Assembly: GCA_027038295.1 (NCBI GenBank)
Contig: JALVXD010000143.1
Coordinates: 1 to 41,014, forward strand
DNA length: 41,014 nucleotides
Origin: Campylobacteraceae bacterium
GTDB lineage: Bacteria > Campylobacterota > Campylobacteria > Campylobacterales > Sulfurovaceae
Reading direction: 5' to 3'
Shown here: positions 6,665-29,212 of the stretch, one piece after another
Layout of the letters: each line of letters opens with the position of its first letter
Position numbering within the stretch: position 1 is the stretch's first letter
Made by a program: the position numbers and the translations under genes
The notes under the pieces: generated by a model
Database searches by the model: none
What the model saw: the letters and a program-made list of their open reading frames with translations, nothing else
Told to the model about the DNA's origin: nothing

Positions 6665-6688
6665 AGTTTTTACTTTATAGTCTCTACC
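6660..6688. terminator. Weak hairpin at the 3' end of the plus-strand operon
   Basis: GGTAGAG (6660-6666) pairs with CTCTACC (6682-6688) around a 15-nt loop that overlaps the stop codon. No clear U-run follows on either strand, so termination is only possible. Confidence 0.25.
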
Positions 6689-6915
6689 GAAACTAGAGGA
6701 GTGAGTAAGAGAAATATCCAAGATATTGAACGTTTTAATCTTAGAATGCGAATGGTTTTAGCTTGATTTCAATATAAACGATTAAGTTTTCTAAGTCTTG
6801 GAAAAATCTTGTGATAAATCGCTATAACCATTAACTAATTTTAGATGCATGACCCAGTTTGGGAATTTCTACTACTGAATAGTTGTCAATTTTTTTATAC
6901 TTAACTCCCTCGTGC
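6665..6915. other. Intergenic stretch with possible minus-strand coding remnants
   Basis: About 250 bases between convergent genes. On the minus strand, one frame directly behind the acyltransferase reads a protein-like stretch ending GHASKIS before a stop near 6835. Another frame further on begins MVIAIYHKIFPRL and is interrupted by a stop. Neither has a ribosome-binding site or useful length. They could be gene debris or chance open frames in AT-rich DNA. Confidence 0.2.
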
Positions 6916-7449: not shown

Positions 7450-7552
7450 ATAAAGACCTTTTTTATGTAAAAAGTAAGTACAATAATAATGTAATTTCTT
7501 TATATTAGACTTAAATTAACTCAACCTGCTTTAAATATAGTAGCTTGTTTTA

Positions 7553-7585
7553 CAACACTTTAGCCTTTTTTAGGCTAAGATGTTG
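7553..7585 (-). terminator. Strong hairpin downstream of the second EptA-like gene
   Basis: CAACACTTTAGCC pairs with GGCTAAGATGTTG (13 bp with one mismatch and one G-U) around a short T/A loop, 8 bases after the stop of the minus-strand gene. No long U-run follows on the minus strand, so it may be a terminator or a 3'-end protecting stem. Confidence 0.45.
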
Positions 7586-7592
7586 AAAGAGA

Positions 7593-9239: not shown

Positions 9240-9272
9240 ATATGTATTACCTTATTTAAAAGTTATTGCTTG

Positions 9273-9293
9273 AGAAAGAGTTAAACTCTTTCT
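9273..9293 (-). terminator. Hairpin downstream of asnB, related to the PPC-gene terminators
   Basis: AGAAAGAGTT and AACTCTTTCT form a perfect 10-bp stem. The same core sequence forms the hairpins at 12515-12540 and 14623-14653. Confidence 0.5.
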
Positions 9294-9330
9294 GTGTAAA
9301 GTTAAGAGGATTACTCCGCAGCAGATAAAA
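9294..9330 (-). pseudogene. Orphan 3' tail of a third PPC-repeat gene
   Basis: Bases 9311-9329 match the last codons of the 12555 gene at 18 of 19 positions (encoding LSAAE then stop). The following CCTCTTAACT stretch and hairpin match the sequence behind the 14666 gene. Upstream of this tail (9331-9363) the similarity stops and asnB ends. I read it as a relic of a third family member or a recombination end point. Confidence 0.55.
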
Positions 9331-9363
9331 GGGTCATATTTTAAGGGACTTAAAAAGATAGGA

Positions 9364-11277: not shown

Positions 11278-12425
11278 AGGCTCTCCTTGTATTGTGTAAT
11301 GATTCTTTCTAGTGAGTACTCTTTTGCTTTGAGGGGTCCTCTTTTTTTATAGTTCTCTTCTAGCTCTCTATTAGTAAAAATTGTATTAATTGCTTTGACC
11401 AAAGCACTGTTATCACCAATAGGGTAGAGTATTCCATTTTCTGCTATCTCAATATCTTTTTGTAATTGAAAATTTATATCTGTAGTTGGTGCAAGTATCT
11501 CTCTAGGTCCTGAGATACAATCGGTTGAGATAATTGGTGTAGCTGTAATCATCGCTTCTACAATGACATTGGGGAAACCCTCTCCACTGGATGCCAAAAC
11601 AAAAATATCTGCTTGGGCAATGTATTTAAAAGGATTGTCTTTTCTTCCAAGTAGGTGAACTCTGTTTTCTAGTTTATATTTAACAATGGCATCTTCTAAC
11701 ATTTGTTGCTCTTCTCCTTCACCTATAATAATGAGTTCAATGTTATCATTGAGTTTAGCAACTGTCTCTATTAAGGTGATTTGCTTTTTTTGAGAAGAGA
11801 GTCTACCGACATTTATAAGGTATTTCTTATCTGGATTGAATGTAAAGTCATCTACTGTTTCATGAGCTAAGTGTTCAATTCTTTCTATATTGTAGGGGTT
11901 GTTAATAACAGTATAGTTTTTTATATTTGGAACTTCTTTTAAAAACTCCTCTTTCATTCTTTGAGCTTTAAAAATAACCAAATCGGCATATTTGTAGAGC
12001 AGTTTTATAAGTTTAAGATTGATTTTTGCAGAGAGTGATTTGTTTTTAAAGTGGTTAATGCTGATAACCTCAACCACTTCTACCTTATGTTTTGCTCCAA
12101 AAACTTTTGCCAGTAGATTGCTAAAATTGGCTCTGTATATATGGCTTTGAATTAAAGGTATGTTATTCTCTTTTATATGTTCTTTTAATTTTAATGCCAA
12201 GTAGGGAAGGTATAAAAATTTTTTAATATTACTGTCATGTTTGGTTAATTTAGAAAGATATATGATATTGACCTCTTTAGGTAAGGTATATACATTGTCT
12301 TTTTCGATGCAGAGTAGGGTTACTGCTATATTTTGTCTTATTAATTCTGTAATAATGACAGAGAGTACTCTTTCTGCCCCTCCAGAAGTCAATGAGTTTA
12401 TAAAGAGTGTAACATGTTGTTTCAA
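11265..12425 (-). CDS. Glycosyltransferase family 4 (GT-B)
   Basis: 386 residues. SGGAER at about 15-20 is the N-terminal GT-B signature. The donor-site region has VGRLSSQK near residue 207 and GEGFPNVIVE near residue 281, a complete retaining GT4 motif. The start is TTG, preceded by AAAGGA at seven-base spacing; there is no ATG in a comparable position. It overlaps asnB downstream by 13 bases. No membrane helix is evident, so it is likely cytoplasmic or peripheral. The upstream AT-rich region carries two candidate -10 boxes. It probably adds a sugar during repeat-unit assembly of the local glycan; the specificity is unknown. Confidence 0.88.
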   Translation of the reverse strand: MKQHVTLFINSLTSGGAERVLSVIITELIRQNIAVTLLCIEKDNVYTLPKEVNIIYLSKLTKHDSNIKKFLYLPYLALKLKEHIKENNIPLIQSHIYRANFSNLLAKVFGAKHKVEVVEVISINHFKNKSLSAKINLKLIKLLYKYADLVIFKAQRMKEEFLKEVPNIKNYTVINNPYNIERIEHLAHETVDDFTFNPDKKYLINVGRLSSQKKQITLIETVAKLNDNIELIIIGEGEEQQMLEDAIVKYKLENRVHLLGRKDNPFKYIAQADIFVLASSGEGFPNVIVEAMITATPIISTDCISGPREILAPTTDINFQLQKDIEIAENGILYPIGDNSALVKAINTIFTNRELEENYKKRGPLKAKEYSLERIITQYKESLCVV

Positions 12426-12473
12426 TATAAAATCCTTTAAATGTAGTAAAGTTAAAATAAAATAAATTATTTA

Positions 12474-12492
12474 ATTATAATGTAATATTATA
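12474..12492 (-). promoter_or_regulatory. Candidate -10 boxes upstream of GT4-asnB
   Basis: On the minus strand two TATAAT hexamers occur (12479-12474 and 12492-12487), 50-70 bases before the GT4 start, in a very AT-rich stretch. There is no recognisable -35. Confidence 0.3.
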
Positions 12493-12514
12493 AAATTTTT
12501 AATTTAGGAATAGA

Positions 12515-12540
12515 AGAGAAAGAGTTATAACTCTTTCTCT
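12515..12540 (-). terminator. Perfect 26-nt palindrome downstream of the larger PPC-repeat gene
   Basis: AGAGAAAGAGTTA followed directly by its reverse complement TAACTCTTTCTCT, 15 bases after the stop codon. On the minus strand it is followed by the pyrimidine-rich TTCTATTCC. A transcription terminator or a protein-binding dyad. Confidence 0.55.
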
Positions 12541-12554
12541 ATATGTTTAGAATA

Positions 12555-14489
12555 TTACTCAGCAGCAGATAAAGTAATGTTGTCTAAATACCCACCTGTT
12601 GTGTGAAATATTATAATTTTAATAATTTCATTATTAGGCTCTAGTCTATGTAATTCATCATCTATGTTCACTTCAAAGTGGTTCCATAAACTTGTTGATG
12701 AATATCCATATCCACGTACCATCTCTACAGGAGAAGGGTAGTTTAAGAAGATATTGTGTCCATTATCATGTTTTCTTGGTGGATAACCTTGATGAGTGTA
12801 CCACGAATCCCATGTCATGATTCTTCTTCCCAATTTTGTTTCAACAATAACACCAACACCATAATGAGGGATAAATCCTCTATGACTTTCAGGGTGGTTA
12901 TAGAGTAGATGGGTTGGTAATCCTCCCATATCCATGGATAATACTCTTTGTGAAGTATTATTTACTGGAAGGTGGTATCTATATATTGTAGCCCCACCAT
13001 TTGCATGTTGAACCAATACACCTGTACCTTCTGGTGCACCAGGTATATCTGGAGTAGGGTAAATGTAGCTAGGTTGATTCCCCAGTACTGTTTGCCAGTT
13101 AGGGTTAAGGGTACCACCTTCTGCGTCTTCAAGAACAGTAGGCACTTCAGGGTTTGCTGGTATCAATTCTAGTTCAGCTGTAGCTCTTAAGAGATAATCA
13201 GATGCTCTAAATCCAGATACTCCTATAAAGACTTCTGTATCATCAGTGATACTAAGTGAACAGGAATTTGTAGTCGCTCCCATATCAACACCTCTACAAT
13301 CATAAGATGCTCTTGTAGGCTTTTCACCTTTTTTCATGTAAATATGAGCAATATTGGTGAGTCCACTGATAGTAGCTATAATTTTATCTCCCAAATGAGC
13401 TTGTATCTTATAATATTTCATATCACCTCTTGCTACAGAAGCAGATACTGATTCACCTGAAACTAAAGTAGGTATACCCCCACCATTATTACCATTATGG
13501 AGTGTAGCAGTTATAGTATAGTTGCTTGATTGGTATCCGTAAACAGTTATGAATGCAGTGGTGTTTTGAGTTGCTGTAATGGAACAACCATCATCTTGAG
13601 TATTACCCTTGGTTGATTTACAATCAAAAGAACTACCTGTTGGAAGTTCACCCATTTTTACATATAAATCACTATCAGCAGAGAGATTGCTTATTAAAGA
13701 GTCCAAAGATTGACCTGCTGTCATGTCGATTTTATAGTGCTTTTCTGCTCTTTCATTAACTGCACTAGATATGGCTTGAGCAGAAGTCAAAGTAGTGATA
13801 GGGTCTTCTTCATCATGACTTTTGGTTACAGTTATTTGATAGTCTGCTGCTCTACGTCCATAAACACGTACATAAACTCTAGCATCATGGTCTAAGGTTA
13901 CAGAACAGCTTTCATTTTGTGTACCAGCATTGGTTGATTTACAATCATTTTTACTGCTTGTTGGTCTGCGACCTACTCTTACATATATATTTGCATTATC
14001 AGATAGTCCAGTTAGGTTGGATGTAATCGTGTCTCCACTCGAAGCCGAGATTAAATAATAATGCGACTTACCTCTATTGACATGACCAGATACACTCTCT
14101 CCTGAGGTAACTAATGTGTCATTTTCAGCAAGGTGATTTTTAGTTGCAGTTACTTGATAGTTGGTTGCTCTTCGTCCATAAACCCGTATATAAACTGTTG
14201 CATCATGGTCTACTAGTGCAGAACAACTATCATTCTCTATACCACCATTGGTTGATTTACAATCATAAGAACTGCTCGTTGGTCTAGCTCCCACTCTTAC
14301 ATATACGTCGGCATTATCTGTTAGTCCCTCTAAAATGGACGAAATGACATCCCCTCTTGAGGCAGAGATTAAATAATAATTTGATTGACCTCTATCTACA
14401 TGACCAGATACAGTCTGACTAGACACAACTGATGTATCATTTGCAAACAGTACATTTGCGAATATTAAAAAGAATATAATTTTATTCAT
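12555..14489 (-). CDS. Secreted protein with four PPC-like repeats and a shared C-terminal domain
   Basis: About 644 residues. A signal peptide (MNKIIFFLIFANVLFA, cleavage after A) is followed by four beta-rich repeats of about 100 residues (roughly 18-112, 123-218, 230-330, 338-435) resembling bacterial pre-peptidase C-terminal (PPC) domains. Each repeat has a YYxI/YKI start, a G-rich turn, a conserved Cys pair spaced for a disulfide, and a closing VYG(R/Y)xxxxYxxTAT strand. The last 200 residues form a different domain with many aromatics, ending GGYLDNITLSAAE, which looks like a jelly-roll carbohydrate-binding fold (inference). No catalytic domain is visible. The ATG at 14489 is preferred over GTG at 14495 because AGGAG lies eight bases before it. 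It is a tandem paralogue of the next gene, with one more repeat. It is likely periplasmic, outer-membrane associated or exported, perhaps binding the local polysaccharide. Confidence 0.75.
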   Translation of the reverse strand: MNKIIFFLIFANVLFANDTSVVSSQTVSGHVDRGQSNYYLISASRGDVISSILEGLTDNADVYVRVGARPTSSSYDCKSTNGGIENDSCSALVDHDATVYIRVYGRRATNYQVTATKNHLAENDTLVTSGESVSGHVNRGKSHYYLISASSGDTITSNLTGLSDNANIYVRVGRRPTSSKNDCKSTNAGTQNESCSVTLDHDARVYVRVYGRRAADYQITVTKSHDEEDPITTLTSAQAISSAVNERAEKHYKIDMTAGQSLDSLISNLSADSDLYVKMGELPTGSSFDCKSTKGNTQDDGCSITATQNTTAFITVYGYQSSNYTITATLHNGNNGGGIPTLVSGESVSASVARGDMKYYKIQAHLGDKIIATISGLTNIAHIYMKKGEKPTRASYDCRGVDMGATTNSCSLSITDDTEVFIGVSGFRASDYLLRATAELELIPANPEVPTVLEDAEGGTLNPNWQTVLGNQPSYIYPTPDIPGAPEGTGVLVQHANGGATIYRYHLPVNNTSQRVLSMDMGGLPTHLLYNHPESHRGFIPHYGVGVIVETKLGRRIMTWDSWYTHQGYPPRKHDNGHNIFLNYPSPVEMVRGYGYSSTSLWNHFEVNIDDELHRLEPNNEIIKIIIFHTTGGYLDNITLSAAE

Positions 14490-14543
14490 TAACACGTCTC
14501 CTATTTTTTATAAAGTTTATTTTATTTTTTAGAATAAAATCAC

Positions 14544-14552
14544 ATTATATCA
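14544..14552 (-). promoter_or_regulatory. Extended -10 promoter of the larger PPC-repeat gene
   Basis: The minus strand reads ATGTGATATAAT, containing TGATATAAT, a perfect extended -10, about 55-60 bases before the start codon. The surrounding 30 bases are nearly identical to the promoter at 16318. Confidence 0.6.
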
Positions 14553-14622
14553 CATACAATGTTTTTTATGGTTTAATATTTATTCTTATGAATTGTTGTT
14601 TGAAGTGAAGTTTCTGGAGAAT

Positions 14623-14653
14623 AACAGAGAAAGAGTAGAACTCTTTCTCTGTT
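14623..14653 (-). terminator. Long hairpin downstream of the smaller PPC-repeat gene
   Basis: AACAGAGAAAGAGT pairs perfectly with ACTCTTTCTCTGTT (14 bp) around a 3-nt loop, 12 bases after the stop codon. It belongs to the same hairpin family as 9273 and 12515. Confidence 0.6.
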
Positions 14654-14665
14654 AGTTAAGAGGGG

Positions 14666-16273
14666 TTAGTTAGCAGCAGATAAAGTAATATTATCTAGGT
14701 AACCACCTGTTGTGTGAAATATTATAATTTTAATAATTTCATTATTAGGCTCTAGTTTATGTAATTCATCATCTATGTTCACTTCAAGATGAGTCCATAA
14801 ATTTGTTGGTGCATACCATCCACGTACCATCTCTACAGGAGATGGGTAGTTTAAGAAGATATTGTGTCCATTGTCATGTTTTCTTGGTGGATAACCTTGA
14901 TGGGTGTACCAAGAGTCCCATGTCATGATTCTTCTTCCCAATTTTGTTTCAACAATAACTCCTACACCATAATGAGGGATATATCCTCTAAGACTTTCAG
15001 AGTAGTTGCTAAACTTATGTGTAGGTAATCCACCTATATCCATAGATAATACTCTTTGTGAAGTATTGTTTACTGGAAGGTGGTATCTATAGAGTGTGGC
15101 TCCACCAGAAGCATGCTGAACCAATACACCTGTACCTGATGGTGCACCAGCAATATGTGGAGTAGGGTAAATGTATCCCGGTTCATTTCCTATCACAATT
15201 TCCCAGTTAGGGTTAAGGATACCATTTTCTGCATCTTCAAGAACAGTAGGCACTTCAGGGTTTGCTGGTATTAATTCTAGTTCAGCAGTCGCAGTTAAGA
15301 GATAATCTGATGCTCTAAATCCAGATACGCCTATGAATACTTCTGTATCATCAGAGATATTAAGTGAACAGGAGTTTGTAGTTGCTCCCATATCAACACC
15401 TCTACAATCAAAAGATGCTCTTGTAGGCTTTTCACCTTTTTTCATGTAGATATGAGCAATATTGGTTAGTTCACTAATGGTTGCTATAACTTTATCTCCC
15501 AAATGAGCTTGTATCTTATAATATTTCATATCATCTCTTGCTACAGAACCAGATACTACTTCACCTGAAACTAAAGTAGGTATACCCTCACCATTACCAC
15601 CATGGAGTGTAGCAGTTAAAGTATAGTTAGCAGCTCGATATCCGTAAACAGTAATATATGCAGTAGTATTTTGTGTTGCTGTAACGGAACAGGCATCATT
15701 TTGAGTATTACCATTGGTTGACCGACAATCATAAAAATCTCTTGTTGCCATTTGACCCATTCTAACATATAAATCATTATCATCAGTGAGATTACTTATT
15801 AAAGAGTCTAATGATTGACCAGCTGTCATTCCAATTTGATAATGTTTTTCCTCTCCTTGAGTAACAGAATCAGATAGGGCTTGACCAGAAATCAATGTAG
15901 GTATATTATTTCCAGCACCATTTTTAGTTACTGTCACTTGATAGTCTGTTGCTCTATGTCCATAAACACGTACATAAACCATAGCATCATGATCTAATGT
16001 TACAGAACAATTTTCATTTTCTATACCACCATTGGTTGATGTACAATCATTTCTACTGCTTGTTGGTCTACTACCTATTTTCATATATAAATCAGCATTA
16101 TCACCTAGTCCAACTAGATTGGAGGTAATGGTGTCTCCATTTGAAGCAGAGATTAGGTAATAGTTTGACTCACCTCTATTGACATGACTGGACACTGTCT
16201 GTCCAGATATAACTGATGTATCACTTGCAAAAAGTACATTTGCAAATATTAAAAAGAATGCAATTTTCTTCAT
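14666..16273 (-). CDS. Secreted protein with three PPC-like repeats and a shared C-terminal domain
   Basis: 535 residues. A signal peptide (MKKIAFFLIFANVLFA) is followed by three repeats of about 100 residues (roughly 17-112, 117-217, 226-323), each with the Cys pair in a D-C-x-S-T-N...C-S context. The roughly 200-residue C-terminal domain ends GGYLDNITLSAAN. The C-terminal domain and the last repeat are nearly identical to those of the 12555 gene, while the N-terminal repeats differ, as expected after duplication plus repeat gain, loss or gene conversion. AGGAG lies eight bases before the ATG. It has its own promoter (16318) and terminator (14623), so the two paralogues are separate transcription units. 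No enzymatic motif is seen; a structural or glycan-binding role is inferred. Confidence 0.75.
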   Translation of the reverse strand: MKKIAFFLIFANVLFASDTSVISGQTVSSHVNRGESNYYLISASNGDTITSNLVGLGDNADLYMKIGSRPTSSRNDCTSTNGGIENENCSVTLDHDAMVYVRVYGHRATDYQVTVTKNGAGNNIPTLISGQALSDSVTQGEEKHYQIGMTAGQSLDSLISNLTDDNDLYVRMGQMATRDFYDCRSTNGNTQNDACSVTATQNTTAYITVYGYRAANYTLTATLHGGNGEGIPTLVSGEVVSGSVARDDMKYYKIQAHLGDKVIATISELTNIAHIYMKKGEKPTRASFDCRGVDMGATTNSCSLNISDDTEVFIGVSGFRASDYLLTATAELELIPANPEVPTVLEDAENGILNPNWEIVIGNEPGYIYPTPHIAGAPSGTGVLVQHASGGATLYRYHLPVNNTSQRVLSMDIGGLPTHKFSNYSESLRGYIPHYGVGVIVETKLGRRIMTWDSWYTHQGYPPRKHDNGHNIFLNYPSPVEMVRGWYAPTNLWTHLEVNIDDELHKLEPNNEIIKIIIFHTTGGYLDNITLSAAN

Positions 16274-18789: not shown

Positions 18790-18869
18790 AGGAATAAGAC
18801 TTTTTTTAGAATTTTTTCTATTTTTATTGATAGAACAAGGATTAATTTTATATAAATAAGTTAGTGTAT

Positions 18870-18875
18870 TATAAT
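18870..18875 (+). promoter_or_regulatory. Candidate -10 of the FecR-OmpA-CHASE2 operon
   Basis: TATAAT about 19 bases before the FecR-domain ATG, in T-rich DNA and without a clear -35. The 18790-18893 gap otherwise holds only AT-rich sequence with a T-run behind the BY-kinase stop. Confidence 0.35.
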
Positions 18876-18893: not shown

Positions 18894-19316
18894 ATGGTGA
18901 AAACAGTAGTCATGTTGGTATTAATCTTCAGCAATTTTTTATTTGCTGATGTAGGATTTGTGAAAACATTAACAGGTAAAGCAGAACTTAAACAAGGTAA
19001 GAAGATAGTTATGCTTAAAGTAGGTTCTAGTTTAGAGAATGGTGACGTGATTATCACTAAGGAAAATAGTTCTATCGGTATGGTTTTTGATGATGGTACA
19101 ACCATATCTCTTGGAGAAAAAGCTACTTTTGTTATTAATATATTTAAGGTTAAACCCGAGGAAGAAGAATTTGATATAGATGTTTTCTTAAAAAAAGGTA
19201 AAGCCGTTTTTAGTTCTGGAAAAATTGGAAAACTCTCTCCTAAATCAGTCAAATTTCGTATACCTGAGGGTATTATTGGAATCCGTGGTACACATTTTGC
19301 AGTGGAGGCGAAGTAG
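18894..19316 (+). CDS. Secreted FecR-domain protein
   Basis: About 140 residues. A signal peptide (VKTVVMLVLIFSNFLFA) is followed by a compact FecR domain. The segments VGFVKTLTGKAEL, a G-D-V-I-x-T turn, DGTTISLGEKA and the closing IPEGIIGIRGTHFAV are characteristic of the periplasmic beta-rich FecR fold. AAAAGG five bases before ATG 18894 favours that start over GTG 18888. The TAG stop abuts the ATG of the OmpA-domain gene, implying coupling. There is no TonB-dependent receptor or ECF sigma factor nearby, so this is not an iron-citrate system. Stand-alone FecR domains next to CHASE2 sensors are probably envelope-signal inputs or ligand-binding partners (inference). Confidence 0.82.
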   Translation: MVKTVVMLVLIFSNFLFADVGFVKTLTGKAELKQGKKIVMLKVGSSLENGDVIITKENSSIGMVFDDGTTISLGEKATFVINIFKVKPEEEEFDIDVFLKKGKAVFSSGKIGKLSPKSVKFRIPEGIIGIRGTHFAVEAK

Positions 19317-19931
19317 ATGAAAAATCAATTTATTTTTACTATTGCTCTCTTTGTTATTGGCTCTTTTATTGCAGGTCTACTTTTTTCAAATTCGTCTAAA
19401 ACAACAGTAGTCTTATTGAATAATGGAAAAAAACAAAATGCAGTTGTTGTCTCTACAAATAAAGGTAGTAGTCAATTAGATAAGGTAGGAAGCTATGTTG
19501 ATTTAAAAGATAAAGAGTCTGCCATAAGTGAAGTTAAAACAATGACAGAAGAAGAGATAAAGAGACGCTTTGGTAAAGTTTTGGCTGCCTCTCCTAAAAA
19601 ACCAGTTAGTTATATGGTATATTTTAAGCCAAAGTCTAAAGAGTTAACAAAAGAGTCTAAAGAGGTTTTATCTACTGCTATTGAGATGATGAAAAAGCGT
19701 ACTCCTTGTGTGGTTGACCTTATTGGTCATACAGATACAAAGGGCAGTAATGAGCTTAATATTAAGGTCTCAATACAACGAGCAAAATTGATTGAGTCTA
19801 TCTTGAAAGATAGAGGGATTGAGGTACTCTCTTTAAAGGCTAAAGGTTATGGAGAAGAAGATTTACAGGTTAAAACAGCAGATAATGTAGCTGAAGCTAA
19901 AAATAGAAATGTTGAAATTTTTATAAAGTAA
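19317..19931 (+). CDS. OmpA-family peptidoglycan-binding protein, membrane-anchored
   Basis: 204 residues. One N-terminal hydrophobic segment (about 4-24, likely an uncleaved anchor), a linker of about 70 residues, then an OmpA/MotB C-terminal domain from about 98 to 204. MVYFKPKSKELT is the first strand, LIGHTDTKGSNELN is the core motif with the conserved G-H-T-D, and the end carries the usual N-R-N/R-V-E (EAKNRNVEIFI). This domain binds peptidoglycan diaminopimelate through conserved Asp/Arg residues. It begins at the base right after the FecR stop, and the CHASE2 kinase follows seven bases later, so all three probably form one mRNA and maybe one envelope-sensing complex. Confidence 0.85.
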   Translation: MKNQFIFTIALFVIGSFIAGLLFSNSSKTTVVLLNNGKKQNAVVVSTNKGSSQLDKVGSYVDLKDKESAISEVKTMTEEEIKRRFGKVLAASPKKPVSYMVYFKPKSKELTKESKEVLSTAIEMMKKRTPCVVDLIGHTDTKGSNELNIKVSIQRAKLIESILKDRGIEVLSLKAKGYGEEDLQVKTADNVAEAKNRNVEIFIK

Positions 19932-19937
19932 ATAGTA

Positions 19938-21869
19938 TTGCAAACTCTTAAATATATAGTGCTTATTATAGTCTTAATCGTAATGCACTATTCTCTCTAT
20001 AACAGTGAGCATTTAAAGAGAGTTGATTATAAAATTTATGATGTCGTGAGTCTCTTTTCTAGTAAAATTAAAGAAAAAAATGATGCTCCTTCTACTATTA
20101 TTGTTGATATTGATGGCAAGAGCTTAAACTCTCTTGGTCAATGGCCTTGGCCAAGGTGGATTGATGCCAAACTTATTAATAGTATTTATGAGCTTCATCC
20201 CTCTGCTATAGGGGTTAATATACTTTTTTCAGAGAAAGATAGAGTCTCTCCTGTAACTATTCAAAGTTTTTATAAAAGATTTTTTGGCTTAGAAATTAAG
20301 TTTAATGGGTTGCCTTCTGCACTTAAAGATAATGATAAAATTTTATCTCAAAGTATTGAAAAAACAGGATCCACCATCGCAACATATTTTATTAATAGTG
20401 ACTATAATACTTCTTATTGTGAAGAGCTTTCCTATAGAGATAATATGTTTAAAAATATAGAAACAGAACATATGGTAGAAGGGCTTCTTTGTAATTATGA
20501 AACCATACAGAATGGAGTAAAAGATTTTGGTTTTATTAATGCATGGGTAGACAGTGATGGAATATTTAGAAGAGTGCCTCTTTTTATGAAGTATAAGGAG
20601 CGTATTTTCCCCTCTTTAGCACTGGCTACACTTTTGAGTTTTGATAAAAATTTAAAAATAGAGAACGATGACACTCTACTAATAGACTCATTTAAAAAAA
20701 AACCTAAAGTATTTTCTGCTATGGACATTTTAGAGGCTCGTGTTCCAGCAGATGAAATTCAAGGGAAAGTTGTCATTGTTGGCTCGTCTGTGGTAGGATT
20801 AAATCCTACTTATCGTACGTCAAGTGGTCAATCCATTTCAAATAGCATGATACATGCTTTAGTGGCAGATAGTATTTTAAGTAATACTACACTGACTCAG
20901 CCAAAAGTCTATAAGAAAATTAATATTTTACTCTCTTTTTTCTTTTCTACTTTAATAGTCATATTGTTTATAAAGAGGATATATATACAGGCTTTTTTTC
21001 TCTTCCTTGTGACATTGACTATAAGTGTCTTAAGCGTATTTTATTCTTATATGAATGGAGTTTATATCTCAATTGGTTATTTTGGGATACCCTTTTTGTA
21101 TGTTTTTGTTTTGTTCGTTATCTTCTATTCTATAAAAATAGATAGAGAGAAACAGGAACAAGAGAAAATTCTAATTATACAGAGTAAACTTGCTTCAATG
21201 GGTGAGATGATAGCCCTTATTGCTCATCAATGGCGTCAACCACTCTCTTCAATTAATGGTACAGTAATGAGTATAGATGTCGATAATAGAAAGAAAATTC
21301 TTGATGATGAAAAACTTGATAAACATTTAAATCAGATAGAAGAGACAACGGCTTATTTGTCTAAAACCATTAATGATTTTACTGATTTTTTTTCAACAAA
21401 TAAAAAAAGTGAAATGTTTCATATAAGAGATATTGTGAAACAAACAGAGAGTTTAACTGTAATTTCAAGTCATAAAAATATTGATATTACATACAGTGAA
21501 AAAGAAGATATTCAGGTTGTAGGTTACAGTTCCGAACTGATACAGTCACTTTTAATTCTTCTGAATAATGCCATTTATGCTTGTCAGAAAAATCTTCAAA
21601 ATATTGATAAAGGGAAGATTAGAATTGATGCCTATATCGAAAAAAATAGAGTATTTATAACGGTTAAGGATAATGGTGGGGGTATAGAGGAGAGAGACAT
21701 CAAGAAAATATTTGACCCATACTTCACAACTAAAGATAAAGAGAATGGTACAGGTTTAGGACTTTATATTTTGAAATTGATTGTTGAAGAGAGTATGAAT
21801 GGTAAAATTTTTGTTAGTAATTGGGATGATGGAGCTATGTTTACCATACAAATCCCAACTAAAAACTAA
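19938..21869 (+). CDS. CHASE2-domain sensor histidine kinase
   Basis: 643 residues. Short N-terminal TM (about 4-21), extracytoplasmic CHASE2 domain (about 40-315; note VDIDGKSLNSLGQWPWPR and the closing GKVVIVGSS), three TMs (about 325-398), a short coil, then HisKA with the phosphoacceptor His in AHQWRQPLS (about residue 430) and a HATPase_c domain with NNAIYAC (N box), DNGGGI (G1) and GTGLGLYI (G2). The start is TTG with only a weak upstream site; no better codon precedes CHASE2. There is no receiver domain or adjacent response regulator. In the operon with FecR and OmpA proteins it is the likely signal-transducing component, perhaps sensing cell-wall or envelope state. Confidence 0.88.
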   Translation: MQTLKYIVLIIVLIVMHYSLYNSEHLKRVDYKIYDVVSLFSSKIKEKNDAPSTIIVDIDGKSLNSLGQWPWPRWIDAKLINSIYELHPSAIGVNILFSEKDRVSPVTIQSFYKRFFGLEIKFNGLPSALKDNDKILSQSIEKTGSTIATYFINSDYNTSYCEELSYRDNMFKNIETEHMVEGLLCNYETIQNGVKDFGFINAWVDSDGIFRRVPLFMKYKERIFPSLALATLLSFDKNLKIENDDTLLIDSFKKKPKVFSAMDILEARVPADEIQGKVVIVGSSVVGLNPTYRTSSGQSISNSMIHALVADSILSNTTLTQPKVYKKINILLSFFFSTLIVILFIKRIYIQAFFLFLVTLTISVLSVFYSYMNGVYISIGYFGIPFLYVFVLFVIFYSIKIDREKQEQEKILIIQSKLASMGEMIALIAHQWRQPLSSINGTVMSIDVDNRKKILDDEKLDKHLNQIEETTAYLSKTINDFTDFFSTNKKSEMFHIRDIVKQTESLTVISSHKNIDITYSEKEDIQVVGYSSELIQSLLILLNNAIYACQKNLQNIDKGKIRIDAYIEKNRVFITVKDNGGGIEERDIKKIFDPYFTTKDKENGTGLGLYILKLIVEESMNGKIFVSNWDDGAMFTIQIPTKN

Positions 21870-21887
21870 AGGATTATTTTCCTTTAG
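21866..21887. terminator. Bidirectional hairpin between convergent genes
   Basis: CTAAAGGA and TCCTTTAG form an 8-bp stem with a 6-nt loop spanning both stop codons. On the minus strand it is followed by TTTTTAG, so it can terminate the thioredoxin-like gene; the plus strand lacks a U-run. Confidence 0.55.
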
Positions 21888-22554
21888 ATAATGTCTCATA
21901 AATATTATCAAAATCTTTTGACCCAAGTCCACCAGCATGAACAATTTTTACAACAGTTTTTTTATCAAATCCAATTAAAAATGGAATGGCTCCACTCCAG
22001 TTGGCTTGTCTTGAAATATAATTTACAAAGTTAGCACTTTCATCATAGGTCACAAGAGTATAGTTAATTCCTTTACTTTTCTTGAACTCTTTGAGCTGTT
22101 CTGCTGCGTATCCTTGAACCTCAATGGCTATAATCTCTAAATCTTTGTGCTCTTTGTTTTTTAGTTCTATAAGTACAGGAATTTCAGCCAAACATGGTGG
22201 ACATTTATGTCCAAAAAATAGTAAAAGTACTGCTTTGTCTTTATACTCTTTAAATAATAATCCACCTTCTGTTTCATCAATATGAATGGTTTTTCCATCA
22301 AGAGTTTTAAGTGTAAAAAGAGACGCTTTACTTTGGTTTGAATCTGCTTTTAGATTCTCTTCTTTTACATTTTCTTTTTTTACAGTTTCCTCTTTGCTTA
22401 CTGTCTCTTGAACAGTCTCTTTTTTAGGCTCTGTTTTTACCATTTCTTTTTTGATTTTAGTAGCGTTAGTTTCCGTTTTATCTTTACTATCTTGTGAAGA
22501 ACAAGCAGTAAAAAGAATGACAAGTAGTAGTGTATTTATCATTTTGAACATCAT
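21874..22554 (-). CDS. TlpA/ResA-like thioredoxin-fold lipoprotein
   Basis: 226 residues. A lipoprotein signal peptide with lipobox FTACSS is followed by a Lys/Glu/Val/Thr-rich linker of about 55 residues, then a thioredoxin fold. The redox motif is KCPPC (Cys near 118 and 121), with the cis-Pro in AIPFLIG. It has the extra insertion seen in TlpA/ResA/AhpC-TSA-like periplasmic reductases. AGGAG just upstream supports the first ATG (the second, three bases on, is equally possible). It is probably anchored in the periplasm to reduce disulfides, e.g. during cytochrome c maturation. It is convergent to the CHASE2 kinase and not in an operon with its neighbours. Confidence 0.85.
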   Translation of the reverse strand: MMFKMINTLLLVILFTACSSQDSKDKTETNATKIKKEMVKTEPKKETVQETVSKEETVKKENVKEENLKADSNQSKASLFTLKTLDGKTIHIDETEGGLLFKEYKDKAVLLLFFGHKCPPCLAEIPVLIELKNKEHKDLEIIAIEVQGYAAEQLKEFKKSKGINYTLVTYDESANFVNYISRQANWSGAIPFLIGFDKKTVVKIVHAGGLGSKDFDNIYETLSKGK

Positions 22555-22763: not shown

Positions 22764-23711
22764 ATGAATCAAACAATTATTGATATAAAAGAAGAAGTTC
22801 AAAAAGTTATTGTTGGACATGAAGAGTTGATAGATGCACTGCTTATTGGGCTTATATCTGATGGGCATATCTTGGTAGAGGGTGTTCCTGGTTTAGCAAA
22901 GACCACAGCCATTAATGCTTTGGCTCAAGGGTTAGGACTAGACTTTAAGCGTATACAGTTTACACCTGACCTACTTCCTTCAGACATTACAGGAACTGAA
23001 ATCTATGACCAGAAAAATGCAGAGTTTAAAGTACGAAAAGGTCCTGCCTTTACAAACTTACTCTTAGCCGATGAAATCAACAGGGCTCCTGCTAAAGTAC
23101 AAGCAGCACTACTAGAAGTAATGCAAGAGCGACAGATTACTATAGGGGAAGAGACTTATAAACTCGATGACCCATTTTTGGTATTAGCAACACAAAACCC
23201 AGTAGAACAAGAGGGGGCTTACAAACTTCCTGAAGCACAGTTAGATAGATTTATGCTTAATGTCATTGTTGACTACAACAGCATAGAGGAAGAGTTTGAG
23301 ATAGTAAAACGTGTAGCTGATAACGCTTTTGGTGTTATTAACCAAGTGGTTACAAAAGAGCAGTTAACAGCACTTAAAGAGGCTGCAAAAGAGGTCAATG
23401 TAGACGATGCTATTTTAAAATATATTTTAAATATTGTCTTTGCTACCCGTAACCCTGAGCAGTTTGGCATAGCTGAAATAGGAAACTACATCGAGTATGG
23501 TGCCAGTCCAAGAGCCTCTATAAATATCTACAAAGCAGTAAAAGCCGTGGCTGTTTTACGAGGAAAAGATTTTGTAACGCCTGTAGATGTGGCAGAGGTA
23601 GTGGGCAATGTTTTACGGCATAGAATTATCTTAAATTATAAAGCTGAAGCCAATGGAATTACTACTGATTATATTGTAAAGACAATTATGCAGAACATTA
23701 AGTTACCTTAA
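22764..23711 (+). CDS. MoxR-family AAA+ ATPase
   Basis: 315 residues, the typical MoxR length. Walker A is GVPGLAKTT near 39-47, Walker B is LLADEINRAP near 104-113, and sensor 1 is VLATQNPVEQEG near 144-155, followed by the MoxR-specific AYKLPEAQLDRFML and the AAA lid. AGGAA six bases before the ATG is a good ribosome site. It is the first gene of a seven-gene operon with DUF58 and VWA (Bat) genes, the classic pairing in which MoxR acts as a chaperone-like ATPase for VWA proteins in envelope or metal-centre assembly and stress tolerance. Confidence 0.93.
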   Translation: MNQTIIDIKEEVQKVIVGHEELIDALLIGLISDGHILVEGVPGLAKTTAINALAQGLGLDFKRIQFTPDLLPSDITGTEIYDQKNAEFKVRKGPAFTNLLLADEINRAPAKVQAALLEVMQERQITIGEETYKLDDPFLVLATQNPVEQEGAYKLPEAQLDRFMLNVIVDYNSIEEEFEIVKRVADNAFGVINQVVTKEQLTALKEAAKEVNVDDAILKYILNIVFATRNPEQFGIAEIGNYIEYGASPRASINIYKAVKAVAVLRGKDFVTPVDVAEVVGNVLRHRIILNYKAEANGITTDYIVKTIMQNIKLP

Positions 23712-23722
23712 GGGGTACACTT

Positions 23723-24577
23723 ATGAAAGATGATAATAAAAAAAGTATTATAGAGCGAGTTGCACGAGAGATACTTATAAAGAGTAAACGTAAGATTTTT
23801 AGTCAAAATCTAGGAAATAATGCTACTACTTTTGTAGGAAATGGTCTGGACTTTTCTGAACTGCGAGAGTATTACTTTGGTGATGATGTTCGTAAAATCA
23901 ACTGGAAAGCAACAGCCAAGGCACAACGCCCCTACATTAACCTCTTTACAGAAGAGCGTGAGTTAAACATTGTTATAGCATTTATGACAAGTGGAGGGAT
24001 TGCTTTTGGTTCTAAGCGAATTAAACAAGAACTAATGGCTGAGGTCTATGCCCTTTTGGCTTTTTCTGCTATGAAAAATGGAGATAATGTCACCACATTG
24101 GCGTTCTCTTCTAAAGAGGAGTACTACAGACGAGCAACAAAAAGCATTAATGCCCTGCATGAGGTGGTTCCAAATCTTTTGGGCTTGGATGCTTTGGGTA
24201 AAGAGGTAGATTATGAAGCGTTCTCTAACTATATGTTAGGGAGTGTAAAGCAAAAATCTATCGTTTTTCTTATAGGTGATTTTTATGAAGAGGTCGATTT
24301 AACACTGCTCTCTGCCAAACATGAGGTCTATGCCATCGTGGTACGTGACAAGTTTGAAGAGGAGCCAAAACTTATGGGGATGTTGGATTTAATAGACCCA
24401 AATAGCATGAAATCTAGTGCTTTTGAGTTTAATCAAAAGATGTTAAATGATTATAAAAAGGTGATAGATAAAAACGATAAAAAGCTCTATGAACACTTTA
24501 CAGGAAATCATATACGGTATGAGAAGATCTATACCGATGAGGACCCCTATTTTAAATTGAATAATTTGGTGAGATAA
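23723..24577 (+). CDS. DUF58 domain protein
   Basis: 284 residues. The DUF58 hallmark is FSELREYYFGDDVRKINWKA (near 46-66), followed by the T/S-x-E-R-E region and a VWA-like Rossmann core ending LIGDFYEE. Two hydrophobic segments are weak, so the protein is probably cytoplasmic. It lies 11 bases after MoxR; the next gene overlaps its TAA as TAATG. In MoxR operons, DUF58 proteins partner MoxR and the VWA proteins; the biochemical role is not settled. Confidence 0.9.
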   Translation: MKDDNKKSIIERVAREILIKSKRKIFSQNLGNNATTFVGNGLDFSELREYYFGDDVRKINWKATAKAQRPYINLFTEERELNIVIAFMTSGGIAFGSKRIKQELMAEVYALLAFSAMKNGDNVTTLAFSSKEEYYRRATKSINALHEVVPNLLGLDALGKEVDYEAFSNYMLGSVKQKSIVFLIGDFYEEVDLTLLSAKHEVYAIVVRDKFEEEPKLMGMLDLIDPNSMKSSAFEFNQKMLNDYKKVIDKNDKKLYEHFTGNHIRYEKIYTDEDPYFKLNNLVR

Positions 24578-24960
24578 TGGAAGAGTTAAAAGATATAAAG
24601 GGCTTTGTAGAAGTCCCCGATGAATCATTTTTTTATTTTATGTTAACAGCTATCTCTATTGTTGTACTTGTAGCTCTTTTAGTATGGTTAGCTCTTTGGT
24701 TGCGTAAACCAAAACGTAAATCTAAACGTTTAACTCCAAAAGAGTTAGCCAAGTTGGAGCTTCAAAAGATAGATTTTTCAGACACCAAAGAGGCTGTTTA
24801 CCATTTCTCTGAAAATGCACAGATAATCTCACCTGAACATCCAGCACTTTTAGATTTGCTACCAAAACTTGAGACATATAAGTTTAAAAAAGAGGTGCCA
24901 GAGCTGAGTAGTGAAGATATAGAGAAGATGAAAACTGTTATAAAGGAGTTAACCTCATGA
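24577..24960 (+). CDS. DUF4381-like small single-pass membrane protein of the Bat operon
   Basis: 127 residues. One TM at about 20-42 (MLTAISIVVLVALLVWLAL) is followed by a basic stretch (RKPKRKSKRLTPKEL) and a small helical cytoplasmic domain. It fits the DUF4381 position and layout in MoxR-DUF58-VWA operons, although the sequence is short. It overlaps DUF58 by one base (TAATG) and batA by four (ATGA), which shows strong coupling. Probably a scaffold for the complex (inference). Confidence 0.75.
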   Translation: MEELKDIKGFVEVPDESFFYFMLTAISIVVLVALLVWLALWLRKPKRKSKRLTPKELAKLELQKIDFSDTKEAVYHFSENAQIISPEHPALLDLLPKLETYKFKKEVPELSSEDIEKMKTVIKELTS

Positions 24961-25847
24961 GCAATATAATGTTTGAGTACCCTTTTGCTTTTTTGTTACT
25001 GTTACTCTATTTTGTCTGTAAAAAGTTCTGTAAACAGAGAAATGAACAGCTTATTTTCCCAAATATGAAGATATTTAAACAGGTCTCATCAGGGCAAAAC
25101 TATCTTTTGTCTGCTGTAGAGTTTTTAGCTGTTTTACTGTTAACCATTGCTCTAGCTTCACCCTACAAACAAGATGATGTGGTGATAGACAAAGACAAAG
25201 GGTATGAGATATCTATGATACTCGATGCCAGTGGTTCGATGAAAGAGTACAATAAGTTTGGAATCGTTAAAGATATTGTAACTGATTTTATAGATATGCG
25301 AAAGCATGATAAATTGGGCTTGACTATTTTTGCAGACTTCTCTTATGTTGCCATTCCTCTTACTTATGACAAAGAGAGTATTAAACGTCTACTTTCTCGT
25401 TTAGAGGTAGGAATAGCAGGGCAGAGTAGAACCTCTCTTTATGAGGCACTCTTTATGAGTTCTAAGCTCTTTAAAGACTCTAAAGCCAAAGAGAAGATAG
25501 CCATACTCTTAACCGATGGAGTAAACAATGTTAACAACATCCCTTTAGATGTAGCCATTAATACGGCTAAAAAGTATGGTATAAAAGTTTATGTTATAGG
25601 TGTTGGTAATCGTGGTGATTATAACCCTGCTGTGCTTAAAAAAATAGCCACAGAGACAAATGGTCAGTTTTTTGAAGCCGATAGTATTGAGAGGCTGAAG
25701 AAGATATATGAAGTGATAAACAAATTAGAGAAGAGTGAGATAAAAGTGGACAAGTATATTAAAAAGAGTCACTACTTCCAGTACCCTTTAGGTGCAGGAT
25801 TGTTGCTAATGCTTCTCTATTTTCTTGCTAGAAATAGGAGATTTTAA
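24957..25847 (+). CDS. batA: BatA-like VWA protein
   Basis: 296 residues. Two N-terminal hydrophobic segments (about 7-22 and 58-75), a von Willebrand factor A domain (about 85-260) with an intact MIDAS (ILDASGSM near 90-97, the Thr in the GQSRTSLYEA region, and LLTDGVNN near 182), and a C-terminal TM (about 275-292). The VWA lies between membrane helices and is expected in the periplasm, the BatA topology. It overlaps the previous gene by four bases and batB by one. It acts with BatB, BatC and BatD in a membrane complex linked to aerotolerance and envelope stress in other bacteria. Confidence 0.88.
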   Translation: MSNIMFEYPFAFLLLLLYFVCKKFCKQRNEQLIFPNMKIFKQVSSGQNYLLSAVEFLAVLLLTIALASPYKQDDVVIDKDKGYEISMILDASGSMKEYNKFGIVKDIVTDFIDMRKHDKLGLTIFADFSYVAIPLTYDKESIKRLLSRLEVGIAGQSRTSLYEALFMSSKLFKDSKAKEKIAILLTDGVNNVNNIPLDVAINTAKKYGIKVYVIGVGNRGDYNPAVLKKIATETNGQFFEADSIERLKKIYEVINKLEKSEIKVDKYIKKSHYFQYPLGAGLLLMLLYFLARNRRF

Positions 25848-26812
25848 TGGTATTTGATAACAGTGAATATTTATGGCTCTTACTACTTTTGCTCCCTTTA
25901 GGATTTTTTCTAAAGGAGAGTAAGCAGAGTTTAGAAGCCTATTTTGACCCCCAAATACTAAAGCAGATGAGACATAAAGATAAAACGTTCTCTAAAAAGG
26001 TTCGTAATATTCTGCTTATCTCATCTATGGCTTTAGGTATTGTCGCTTTAGCTCGACCTATTTTATATAATGGAGAGGTAAAAGTAGAGAGCAGTAGTAT
26101 AGATGTCATGGTAGGGTTTGATATCTCTCATTCAATGTTTGCCCAAGATGTCTACCCAAACCGTTTTGAGTTTGCCAAGAGAAAATTTGATGCCTTTTTA
26201 TCCAATATGAAAGAGAGCCGTATTGGGGTGATAGGTTTTAGCTCCCAAGCTTTTCTTGTCTCTCCTTTAACCAAAGATATAAGTTCATTGAAGTTTTTGG
26301 TTAAAAATATGAGTTTTGACAATATGAGTCTAAAGGGTACCGATATTCATTCAGCGTTAGAGGTAACCAGTAGACTTTTAGATAACCAAAAGAGAAAAGC
26401 ACTACTACTCTTTACCGATGGTGGTGATAAAAAAGATTATAGTAAAGAGATAGCTTATGCAAAAGAGCATGGTATAGTGGTTTTTGTCTATACCATAGGA
26501 ACCCAAAAGGGTGGGGTGATAAAAGATGAAAATGGTGTTTTAAAAGACAACAAAGGCAATATTGTTGTGGTTAAGAGAAACGATAGTATTAAAGCCTTGG
26601 CGTTAGAGACAGGTGGAGCATACTTAAAATACAGTATGCAACAACAGGATATTAAAGAGTTAAGTGACAATATAAAAAGCAAATTTAAAACCACACAGAA
26701 AAAAGAGCAGACCATCAGAGATACTCAAGAGCTGTTTATGTTTCCATTGCTTTTAGCGATGTTGCTCTTTTTTGTATCATTTGGTTCACTACCAAGAGGA
26801 AAGAAAGCATGA
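25847..26812 (+). CDS. batB: BatB-like VWA protein
   Basis: 321 residues with the same layout as BatA. Hydrophobic segments are near 9-22 and 53-70, the VWA domain is at about 86-275 with MIDAS GFDISHSM (near 90-97), LKGTDIHSAL and LLFTDGGD, and there is a C-terminal TM (about 295-312). It overlaps batA (TAATG) and batC (ATGA). It differs from BatA in a longer insert after the GT strand (KGGVIKDENGVLKDNKGN). Presumed heteromeric partner of BatA. Confidence 0.88.
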   Translation: MVFDNSEYLWLLLLLLPLGFFLKESKQSLEAYFDPQILKQMRHKDKTFSKKVRNILLISSMALGIVALARPILYNGEVKVESSSIDVMVGFDISHSMFAQDVYPNRFEFAKRKFDAFLSNMKESRIGVIGFSSQAFLVSPLTKDISSLKFLVKNMSFDNMSLKGTDIHSALEVTSRLLDNQKRKALLLFTDGGDKKDYSKEIAYAKEHGIVVFVYTIGTQKGGVIKDENGVLKDNKGNIVVVKRNDSIKALALETGGAYLKYSMQQQDIKELSDNIKSKFKTTQKKEQTIRDTQELFMFPLLLAMLLFFVSFGSLPRGKKA

Positions 26813-27702
26813 TAAAACACGTAGGTTCGGTAACACCGAACAAAATAATAATATTACTGGTATCACCTCTTTTGTTATCTGCTTCTCTACTAGACTTTAG
26901 AGAGCTAGACCAAGCATCTAAAGCCGTTTTAGAAGGTAACTACACAAAAGCTGTAAATGCTTATGAGCGTGTTGAAAAGAAGAGTGATGAGGTTATTTAT
27001 GATGAAGCCAACAGTTACTATAAACTAAAAGAGTATAAAAAAGCCAAAGAGCTTTACTCCTCTATACAAAAAGAGTCTCTAGCTTTTAATAAGTGGCACA
27101 ACCTTGGAAATACTCATGCTCAATTAGGTGAGATAGATGAAGGAATAAAAGCTTATGAAGAGGCACTTAAAATAAAAGAGGATAAAGATACACGTTTTAA
27201 CTTGGAACTGCTCAAAAAGAAGAAAAAAGAGCAAGAGAAGAAAAAGAAAGATAATAAAGATAAAAAGAAAGACGACAAAAAAGAGGATAAGAATAAAAAG
27301 AAAGATAATAAAGATAAGAAAAAAGAGGACGACAAAAAGAATCAAGATAAGAAAAATAAAGATTCAGATAACAAAGATAAAAAATCTGATAAACAAAAAA
27401 AAGAAGATGAGAAAAAGAAGAAAGAGCAAGATAAAAAAGATAAAGCTCAAAAAGAGAAAAATAAGAAAAAAGATGACAAAAGTAAAGATGAGAAGAAAAA
27501 AGATGACAATAAGAAAAAAGATAATAAAAACGATAAGTCAGACAAAGAGAAAGAAAAAGCTGCAGCTCAAATGAAAAAAGAGCCTATTTCAGATAAAGAG
27601 TTAAGAAAATATCAAAAGATGCTTGACCAAAGAGGAATCAATACCTTGATGGTACCTTTAGAGACAAAAGGAGATGACAATCATGAACTTAAACCTTGGT
27701 AA
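26809..27702 (+). CDS. batC: BatC-like TPR protein with a long Lys/Asp-rich tail
   Basis: 297 residues. A hydrophobic N-terminal segment (about 12-27) precedes two to three TPR units (about 30-122: GNYTKAVNAYERV, EYKKAKELYSSI, GEIDEGIKAYEEAL), then some 130 residues (about 128-258) consisting almost only of Lys, Asp, Glu and Asn, then a short conserved end. TPR plus a charged tail is the BatC pattern, but this tail is unusually long and low in complexity. Residues 5-11 (VGSVTPN) are encoded by a perfect hairpin that looks like an inserted palindromic repeat. The gene overlaps batB by four bases and batD by 20. Probably a periplasmic adaptor for BatA/BatB. Confidence 0.82.
   Translation: MIKHVGSVTPNKIIILLVSPLLLSASLLDFRELDQASKAVLEGNYTKAVNAYERVEKKSDEVIYDEANSYYKLKEYKKAKELYSSIQKESLAFNKWHNLGNTHAQLGEIDEGIKAYEEALKIKEDKDTRFNLELLKKKKKEQEKKKKDNKDKKKDDKKEDKNKKKDNKDKKKEDDKKNQDKKNKDSDNKDKKSDKQKKEDEKKKKEQDKKDKAQKEKNKKKDDKSKDEKKKDDNKKKDNKNDKSDKEKEKAAAQMKKEPISDKELRKYQKMLDQRGINTLMVPLETKGDDNHELKPW
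26825..26841. repeat. Short palindromic element inside batC
   Basis: GTTCGGT-AAC-ACCGAAC, a 7-bp perfect stem with a 3-nt loop, preceded by GTAG. It resembles GTAGGGTCGG-GTTTAA-CCGACC at 33281-33301 in both form and flank, suggesting a small dispersed palindromic repeat. Confidence 0.4.
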
Positions 27703-29212
27703 AACTATATTGGTATGGATGCTATTCCTACCTCTAATATCATGGGCAGGAGTAACTGCCAAACTTAGTAAAAAAATTATTTATAATGGTGACCAAGTAC
27801 GCTTGATAATAGAAGCAGATGGAGAAGATATTGAGTTTCCTGACCTTGTAGATATCGCAGGTTACCCTGTGGTTGGAACATCAAGTCGTTCGAGTACGAC
27901 TATTATTAATGGAGATATGAAAAAAACCATCTCTAAAAGTTATGTTTTTCAGCCAGATAAAGATGTATCAATTCCATCATATAAAGTAATGGTTGGTGGG
28001 GTAGAAGAGAAGACAGCACCATTGAAGCTAAGAGTAGCAAAAGCATCAGGAGCCATAGGCATAAAAGATGGTGTACGCTTAGAGATGAGTGTAGACAAAA
28101 AAGAGGCGTACGTTGGTGAACCCATTACGTTAAATTTGACATTTAAAAGTTTGCCCAATGCCCATTATGACAAAATAGAACTCTCTGAACCTGAACTAAA
28201 AAAGTTTTGGACTAAAAAAGTCAATGGTCTAAAGCAGGGGGTAGATGGTGACTATACAACACAAACCTATCAATATGTACTATTTCCTCAAGAAGATGGG
28301 AACTTTACTCTAAAACCACCTTTTGTACGCTTAGGTACACGAGTAGCAGGAAGGAGTGCTTTCTCTGACCCATTTTTTGGAAATATAGGTATGCGTATGA
28401 ATTGGAAAAAACTCTTTGCCAATGAGGTAAAGCTTCATATTAAACCTTTACCAAATAATTTGGAGGTGTATGGTGATTTTAGAATATCAGCCAGTGTAGA
28501 CAAGCAAGAGGTCAAAGCCAATAAACCCGTCAATTTAACCATAGATGTTATGGGGCAAGGAAATATAGAAGATATTCAAAAGTTCAAGCTTGATATTCCT
28601 GATGCTGTGGTCTATAGTGATGAGTTAAAGGTCTCTAACTCAGGTATCACCAAAGGTGTCGTAACTCAAAAAGTAGCCATTGTCGCTGACAGAGACTTTA
28701 CGATTCCCTCTATAAGTTTTACCTATTTTGATGCAAAAACCAAAAAGCCTAAAACCATAAAAACAGAAGCTATAAACGTTAAAGTTACTGGCTCGACTAC
28801 GAAGAGTGCCGTACCAAACAAGATAGAGCAAAAAGTAGAGCCAAAAAGTGTAGAACCTGTAGAGAGTAACGTTAATAAAGCAGAAAATAACACTACTGTA
28901 ATAATAAAGAGCCAACCTATAGATAAAATGCTTTGGTATATTTTAGGTCTTTTGTCAGGAGTTGCACTTACTTTGCTTACATGGTTTACGCTTAAAAAAG
29001 TAAAAGGACGTAAAAAAAGAGAAACCCCTATGGCTAAAAAGATAAAAAAAGCAAAAACAGACAAAGCTCTGTTTGAGTTACTCTTGCCTTATAGAGATGA
29101 AGATATTGCTATAAAAAACGCACTTCTTAAGTTAGAAAAAAATATCTATGCTTCAGGGAGTGAGAAGATAGATAAAGATGAGATTTTAGAGTTTTTTGAA
29201 GAGATTCAATAG
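27683..29212 (+). CDS. batD: BatD-like membrane protein
   Basis: About 509 residues. A signal peptide (about 1-22, ending ISWAG), large beta-rich extracytoplasmic Ig-like domains (about 25-380), a TM near 413-433 (MLWYILGLLSGVALTLLTW), and a basic cytoplasmic tail of about 75 residues. This is the BatD/oxygen-tolerance layout. I prefer ATG 27683 because AAAGGAG lies about nine bases before it; the ATG at 27674 is too close to that site. It overlaps batC by 20 bases and is the last gene of the operon. Presumed to bridge periplasmic Bat components to the membrane. Confidence 0.85.
   Translation: MNLNLGKTILVWMLFLPLISWAGVTAKLSKKIIYNGDQVRLIIEADGEDIEFPDLVDIAGYPVVGTSSRSSTTIINGDMKKTISKSYVFQPDKDVSIPSYKVMVGGVEEKTAPLKLRVAKASGAIGIKDGVRLEMSVDKKEAYVGEPITLNLTFKSLPNAHYDKIELSEPELKKFWTKKVNGLKQGVDGDYTTQTYQYVLFPQEDGNFTLKPPFVRLGTRVAGRSAFSDPFFGNIGMRMNWKKLFANEVKLHIKPLPNNLEVYGDFRISASVDKQEVKANKPVNLTIDVMGQGNIEDIQKFKLDIPDAVVYSDELKVSNSGITKGVVTQKVAIVADRDFTIPSISFTYFDAKTKKPKTIKTEAINVKVTGSTTKSAVPNKIEQKVEPKSVEPVESNVNKAENNTTVIIKSQPIDKMLWYILGLLSGVALTLLTWFTLKKVKGRKKRETPMAKKIKKAKTDKALFELLLPYRDEDIAIKNALLKLEKNIYASGSEKIDKDEILEFFEEIQ

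Follow-up and report, generated by a model that had tools for sequence, protein, structure and literature searches.

CHASE2 is a widespread receptor domain, and the locus described here raises the question of what such a receptor might be reporting to the cell. The recognition target of CHASE2 was stated as not known in 2016 (PMC5192318), and a later lead comes from rhizobial CHASE2 cyclases, which sense a plant protein by way of NsrA (PMC13001267). In the window, i.e., the whole 41,014-nucleotide stretch of DNA that was analysed (contig JALVXD010000143.1 of a Campylobacteraceae bacterium), the gene of a CHASE2 sensor histidine kinase lies downstream of genes for a FecR-domain protein and an OmpA-family protein. 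We consider it reasonably probable that these three genes constitute one envelope-sensing unit, in which a reassembled, wall-tethered FecR domain controls CHASE2 output. With similarly moderate confidence, we propose that a single FecR domain is spread over two genes, that one of its halves is fused to a peptidoglycan-binding OmpA domain, and that the halves come together in the periplasm as a cassette tethered to the wall, to which several phyla would have joined different CHASE2 outputs (kinase, hybrid kinase, HD-GYP, or SpoIIE phosphatase).

The initial annotation described three packed genes in the order FecR-OmpA-CHASE2 kinase, and both the open reading frames and the Pfam assignments agree with it: all three are on the same strand, with 0 bp between FecR and OmpA and 6 bp between OmpA and the kinase. 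The features of the locus are as follows.

18847-18875, + strand: promoter-like site 5' of the FecR gene (weak; the regional count of such sites equals the shuffled expectation)
18894-19316, + strand: FecR gene (open reading frame; ATG at 18894, alternative GTG at 18888 or 18897)
19317-19931, + strand: OmpA-family gene (open reading frame, Pfam), encoding an N-terminal anchor, a probable FecR C-terminal half, and a peptidoglycan-binding OmpA domain
19401-19619, + strand: segment of the OmpA protein resembling the C-terminal half of FecR, residues 29-101 (profile homology)
19620-19907, + strand: OmpA domain, PF00691 (Pfam)
19734-19736 and 19779-19781, + strand: Asp140 and Arg155 of the OmpA protein, spaced as in peptidoglycan-binding OmpA domains
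19938-21869, + strand: CHASE2 sensor histidine kinase gene (open reading frame with TTG start, Pfam)
19977-20942, + strand: periplasmic CHASE2 domain (Pfam)
21198-21389, + strand: HisKA dimerisation/phosphoacceptor domain (Pfam), with His430 at 21225-21227
21531-21863, + strand: HATPase_c catalytic domain (Pfam)

Genome-wide, there is a single FecR and a single CHASE2, and both are within this triad. None of the window genes scanned with Pfam encodes a sigma factor, TonB receptor, receiver, or second FecR, which bears out the earlier claim that the first three are missing nearby.

The FecR product is a protein of 140 aa with one N-terminal hydrophobic stretch (signal peptide) and no Pfam domain besides FecR. 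The match to PF04773 is above the cut-off (38.8 bits) and covers positions 1-82 of the 97 in the profile, and the protein ends just past the sequence GIRGTHF (GIRGT at 19278-19292). The FecR proteins of the other triads inspected likewise stop after GI/VRGTxF, mostly at once and in one case (L043) some fifty residues further, and at this stop ~15 positions of the Pfam profile are left. In contrast, the FecR proteins of CHASE2-cyclase loci run on past GIRGT. The OmpA proteins of the triads, for their part, carry a conserved stretch of ~70 residues before the OmpA domain that has no Pfam name. When this stretch was compared by hhalign with the part of FecR that follows GIRGT, the probability was 82.7% (E 9.5e-6), and 30 column shuffles gave at most 1.3%. 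Against single-chain FecR proteins it reached 99.2% (E 2.9e-19; at most 0.9% in 100 shuffles), a score inflated by the fact that this set had been gathered by similarity to the segment. In whole-genome searches, a profile of the OmpA segment containing no FecR rows matched intact single-chain FecR proteins directly after GIRGT. The reverse profile, made from the corresponding parts of single-chain FecR proteins, yielded 38 matches in 3,385 open reading frames, i.e., 37 OmpA proteins and one FecR, and the OmpA protein of the window was itself found by the single-chain FecR profile at E 9.5e-9. Of 58 loci surveyed in Alphaproteobacteria, Gammaproteobacteria, and Desulfobacterota, a script classed 25 as split (a FecR gene adjoining an OmpA gene), 24 as single-chain, and 9 as other; on reading, six of these nine also proved to be split, with misplaced starts or overlapping open reading frames, so that three were assigned to neither form. 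At one locus (L201), FecR, segment, and OmpA domain are all contained within one chain of 385 residues.

An AlphaFold2 model of FecR plus OmpA had a mean pLDDT of 89.2 and a pTM of 0.84, the input being a read-through fusion of the neighbouring frames, by which the two halves were artificially tethered. The model places 12 strands in the FecR product (up to residues 133-138) and four in the OmpA segment (residues 169-203), with a linker of low confidence between the two sets; the corresponding subdomain of PupR has two seven-stranded sheets, 14 strands in all (PMC7186176). Foldseek matches to the model include two FecR-type regulators, PupR (6ovk) and the anti-sigma protein BDI_1681 (4m0h/4m0n), while a sequence search of solved structures gave no meaningful FecR match and no CHASE2 match. 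A model of all three proteins, again from a read-through of the genes and built to look for docking on CHASE2, reached a pTM of only 0.67. FecR and OmpA are thus predicted, from sequence profiles and modelling, to form one composite domain, and they probably represent one FecR domain in two parts, together with a wall anchor, rather than two independent sensors. The N-terminal segment of OmpA, nameless in Pfam, could accordingly be annotated as part of a FecR domain.

The OmpA domain of the window protein scores 58 bits with PF00691, above the cut-off, and the protein has one hydrophobic stretch, at residues 3-27. We take Asp140 and Arg155 to be its peptidoglycan-binding pair, a role known from OmpA-C domains, and the Asp/Arg pair is retained in all 32 triad OmpA proteins examined. 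Most triad relatives carry a lipobox Cys, which the lineage of the window has lost while keeping the hydrophobic N-terminus. The description of OmpA as "anchored" in the initial annotation therefore holds for this genome as a local variant and does not carry over to most relatives.

Conservation of the gene order beyond this genome was the test that the initial annotation had set for itself, and the order recurs both within the genus and across phyla, so it is not due to chance. Within the genus, FecR and OmpA immediately precede the kinase gene at 17 of 20 CHASE2-kinase loci, the genes being separated by small gaps or overlapping. The other three comprise one that ends at a contig edge after OmpA and two that have neither gene, and one of these two genomes has a FecR-OmpA pair elsewhere. 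CHASE2 and the OmpA segment were both present in 24 genomes of the genus, both absent from six, and found one without the other in four (CHASE2 without segment in G143, G148, and G145; segment without CHASE2 in G169), an association with a Fisher p of 4e-4 that ignores relatedness. The profile of the OmpA segment had matches in 19 of 298 Campylobacterota genomes; 16 of these matches were OmpA proteins, and a short FecR gene either adjoined them or lay across CHASE2 in all 16 cases, CHASE2 being in the cluster at 11 of the 16. Triads also occur in other Campylobacterota, in Desulfobacterota, and in Alphaproteobacteria, and a scan of named genomes, which suggests Sulfurovum or a near neighbour as the genus studied here, met with the three genes together in Sulfurimonas, Syntrophaceae, Desulfotignum, Desulfobacterales, Desulfovibrio-type bacteria, Pelagibius, Rhizobium, and others. 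FecR-OmpA pairs remain paired away from CHASE2. These results support FecR, peptidoglycan-binding OmpA, and CHASE2 as a conserved periplasmic input module. The suggestion that the three form a periplasmic sensor thus stands as far as the module is concerned, but its treatment of FecR and OmpA as separate sensors gives way to that of probable halves of one domain. Some loci depart from the common layout: L135-L138, L139, and L233 have FecR-OmpA pairs with no adjoining CHASE2 gene, a CHASE2 protein being encoded elsewhere in those genomes, and two others (L028, 1108-1413; L150, 5465-5770) have a FecR gene of 101 codons beside a CHASE2-HD-GYP gene with no adjacent OmpA. In genome G163, a locus of this latter type coexists with a kinase triad.

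The domains of the kinase all score above their Pfam cut-offs (CHASE2, PF05226, 143.1 bits; HisKA, 29.9; HATPase_c, 70.5). Its hydrophobic stretches comprise one at the N-terminus and a cluster at residues 324-402, and it carries the phospho-acceptor His430 (in HQWRQPL) as well as N, G1, and G2 boxes. Between the kinase domain here and those of several histidine kinases of the same genus, identity is 47-52%, and in one of these cases (L112) the next gene encodes an OmpR-type regulator. Outside the genus, the CHASE2 proteins of Campylobacterota triads end in HD-GYP wherever they were read. In a tree of CHASE2 domains, the 17 kinase rows of the genus form one clade (SH-aLRT 98) nested in an HD-GYP clade (98), and the kinase output appears from these sequences to have taken the place of HD-GYP once, in this genus. 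The four output types require nine changes on the tree, where CHASE2 domains of triads and those linked to cyclases fall on separate branches. In Desulfobacterota, the outputs include hybrid kinases with a receiver, Pelagibius litoralis has a kinase form, and in Proteobacteria there are CHASE2-SpoIIE-type phosphatases whose FecR-OmpA genes run on the other strand (L060, L072, L090, and L190). A STAS-like gene lies near some of the CHASE2-SpoIIE loci, which suggests partner-switching sigma control there. The HD-GYP triads of the genus (L022, L024, L025, L026, and L034) have a convergent gene whose product resembles an NlpC/P60 lipoprotein, possibly a wall hydrolase. In the CHASE2 domain itself, Cys161 (20418-20420) and Cys185 (20490-20492) are conserved in nearly all Campylobacterota triads and mostly missing in cyclase-linked proteins; a disulfide or redox switch is possible.

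The mechanism that we propose begins with a secreted FecR protein that would be an incomplete FecR domain, its missing C-terminal strands coming from the OmpA protein. Together the two would restore a FecR domain that is held to the wall through the peptidoglycan binding of OmpA, as homology and modelling suggest. Considering the conserved linkage and co-occurrence of the genes, this composite may dock on, or come off, the periplasmic CHASE2 domain, and docking or release might depend on the condition of the wall or on its distance from the membrane, in the manner of YfiB-YfiR-YfiN. CHASE2 would in turn set the activity of the cytoplasmic output. Here the kinase would phosphorylate itself at His430 and pass the phosphate to a response regulator whose gene lies elsewhere in the genome, the first candidate being the regulator at C53:45515-46189 (G000); in most close relatives the output would be c-di-GMP hydrolysis by HD-GYP. 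We regard YfiBNR of Pseudomonas aeruginosa (PMC4655355) as the closest working analogy, since it is alike in outline, with an OmpA-type peptidoglycan-binding protein, a small periplasmic partner, and an inner-membrane receptor with a cytoplasmic output. However, the partner here is FecR and not YfiR, the receptor is a CHASE2 kinase or HD-GYP protein and not the diguanylate cyclase YfiN, and the OmpA domain alone is common to both.

Three other explanations were weighed against a reassembled FecR domain. FecR and OmpA could be independent, complete proteins with signals of their own, whose only tie to CHASE2 is the operon, the likeness of the OmpA segment to FecR reflecting a duplicated small beta module. 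The separate Pfam assignments of the two proteins fit such independence, as do the OmpA proteins that carry the segment with no adjoining FecR (in G165, contig C34, and in G169). Nevertheless, we think it unlikely, given that FecR stops at the same point from triad to triad and the OmpA segment supplies just the part that is missing, that FecR accompanies the segment at every one of the 16 Campylobacterota loci of the phylum search, that single-chain versions occur, and that AlphaFold2 folds the two jointly. A still less likely possibility, in our estimation, is that the locus is a two-component system of the BiofilmReg type, controlling biofilm through an OmpR-like regulator that has been relocated in this genome. 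The BiofilmReg operon of Burkholderia contaminans has the same logic, with a peptidoglycan-binding FecR-domain protein adjoining a CHASE2 histidine kinase (PMC5192318). The likeness of the kinase domain to that of L112, with its OmpR-type regulator, also fits, and that regulator (at least 73% identity) is found in 18 of 20 CHASE2-kinase genomes as against 1 of the 14 remaining genomes of the genus, a difference confounded by relatedness in that the carriers are closer relatives. In BiofilmReg, however, the operon includes the response regulator and a DUF4136 gene, one protein combines LysM with FecR, and there is a PAS domain (PMC5192318), whereas the window has no regulator, LysM, or DUF4136, its FecR is split, and the OmpA anchor is a separate gene. 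Since both the sister and the outer branches of Campylobacterota have HD-GYP, the kinase was probably acquired independently.

The name of the FecR domain and the structural match to PupR could also point to an anti-sigma-type protein of cell-surface signalling for iron uptake, with CHASE2 adjacent by accident. We give this hardly any credence. The fold of the FecR (CJM) domain is alike in the FecR/PupR regulators, as the match to 6ovk indicates (PMC7186176), but here the domain is in two chains, with no cytoplasmic anti-sigma domain and no STN subdomain identified; the FecR protein is secreted by a signal peptide, and the triad is conserved across phyla. With an anti-sigma domain, sigma factor, and TonB receptor all missing from the window, signalling of the iron/sigma-factor kind was rejected.

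The probable division of FecR between two proteins also sets this locus apart from the CHASE2 clusters already known in Campylobacterota, in which CHASE2 adenylate cyclase, FecR, TPR, and phosphodiesterase genes occur together (PMC9239204). Those clusters come from the same phylum and likewise join a CHASE2 receptor to a FecR protein, but their output is a cyclase, their FecR is unsplit, and they include a TPR protein, whereas here there are a kinase (HisKA plus HATPase_c), a split FecR, and OmpA. The system had been put forward as undescribed; the pairing of FecR with CHASE2 is in fact published (PMC5192318, PMC9239204), and the description fits better for the split FecR-OmpA form, of which the papers searched gave no instance. 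Neither BiofilmReg, the CHASE2 cyclase clusters, nor YfiBNR is described with a FecR domain over two genes, and the open-access literature searched contained no description of the OmpA-containing triad, the split FecR, or the swaps of CHASE2 output.

A conserved, wall-attached partner made of two proteins is a concrete candidate for a CHASE2 input and a testable complex, and it suggests peptidoglycan or envelope spacing as what is reported. Comparing the lineages would also amount to a natural experiment, with the one input connected to kinases in some and to c-di-GMP enzymes or phosphatases in others.

A coupling of capsule and wall state had been suggested from the neighbouring polysaccharide export gene, but this Wzc-like neighbour is confined to the window and its closest relatives (L003-L005) and is absent from other triads, so the coupling is unsupported. 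Polysaccharide-type genes (asparagine synthases, glycosyltransferases, and sulfatases) and genes for two PPC-domain proteins occupy 612-16273 of the window, and a MoxR/DUF58/VWA/BatD-type cluster lies apart from the triad at 22764-29212. Convergent to the kinase gene and 4 bp from it is a gene (21874-22554) for a redoxin-like protein with a lipobox-like N-terminus, a neighbour that is retained in L003-L005.
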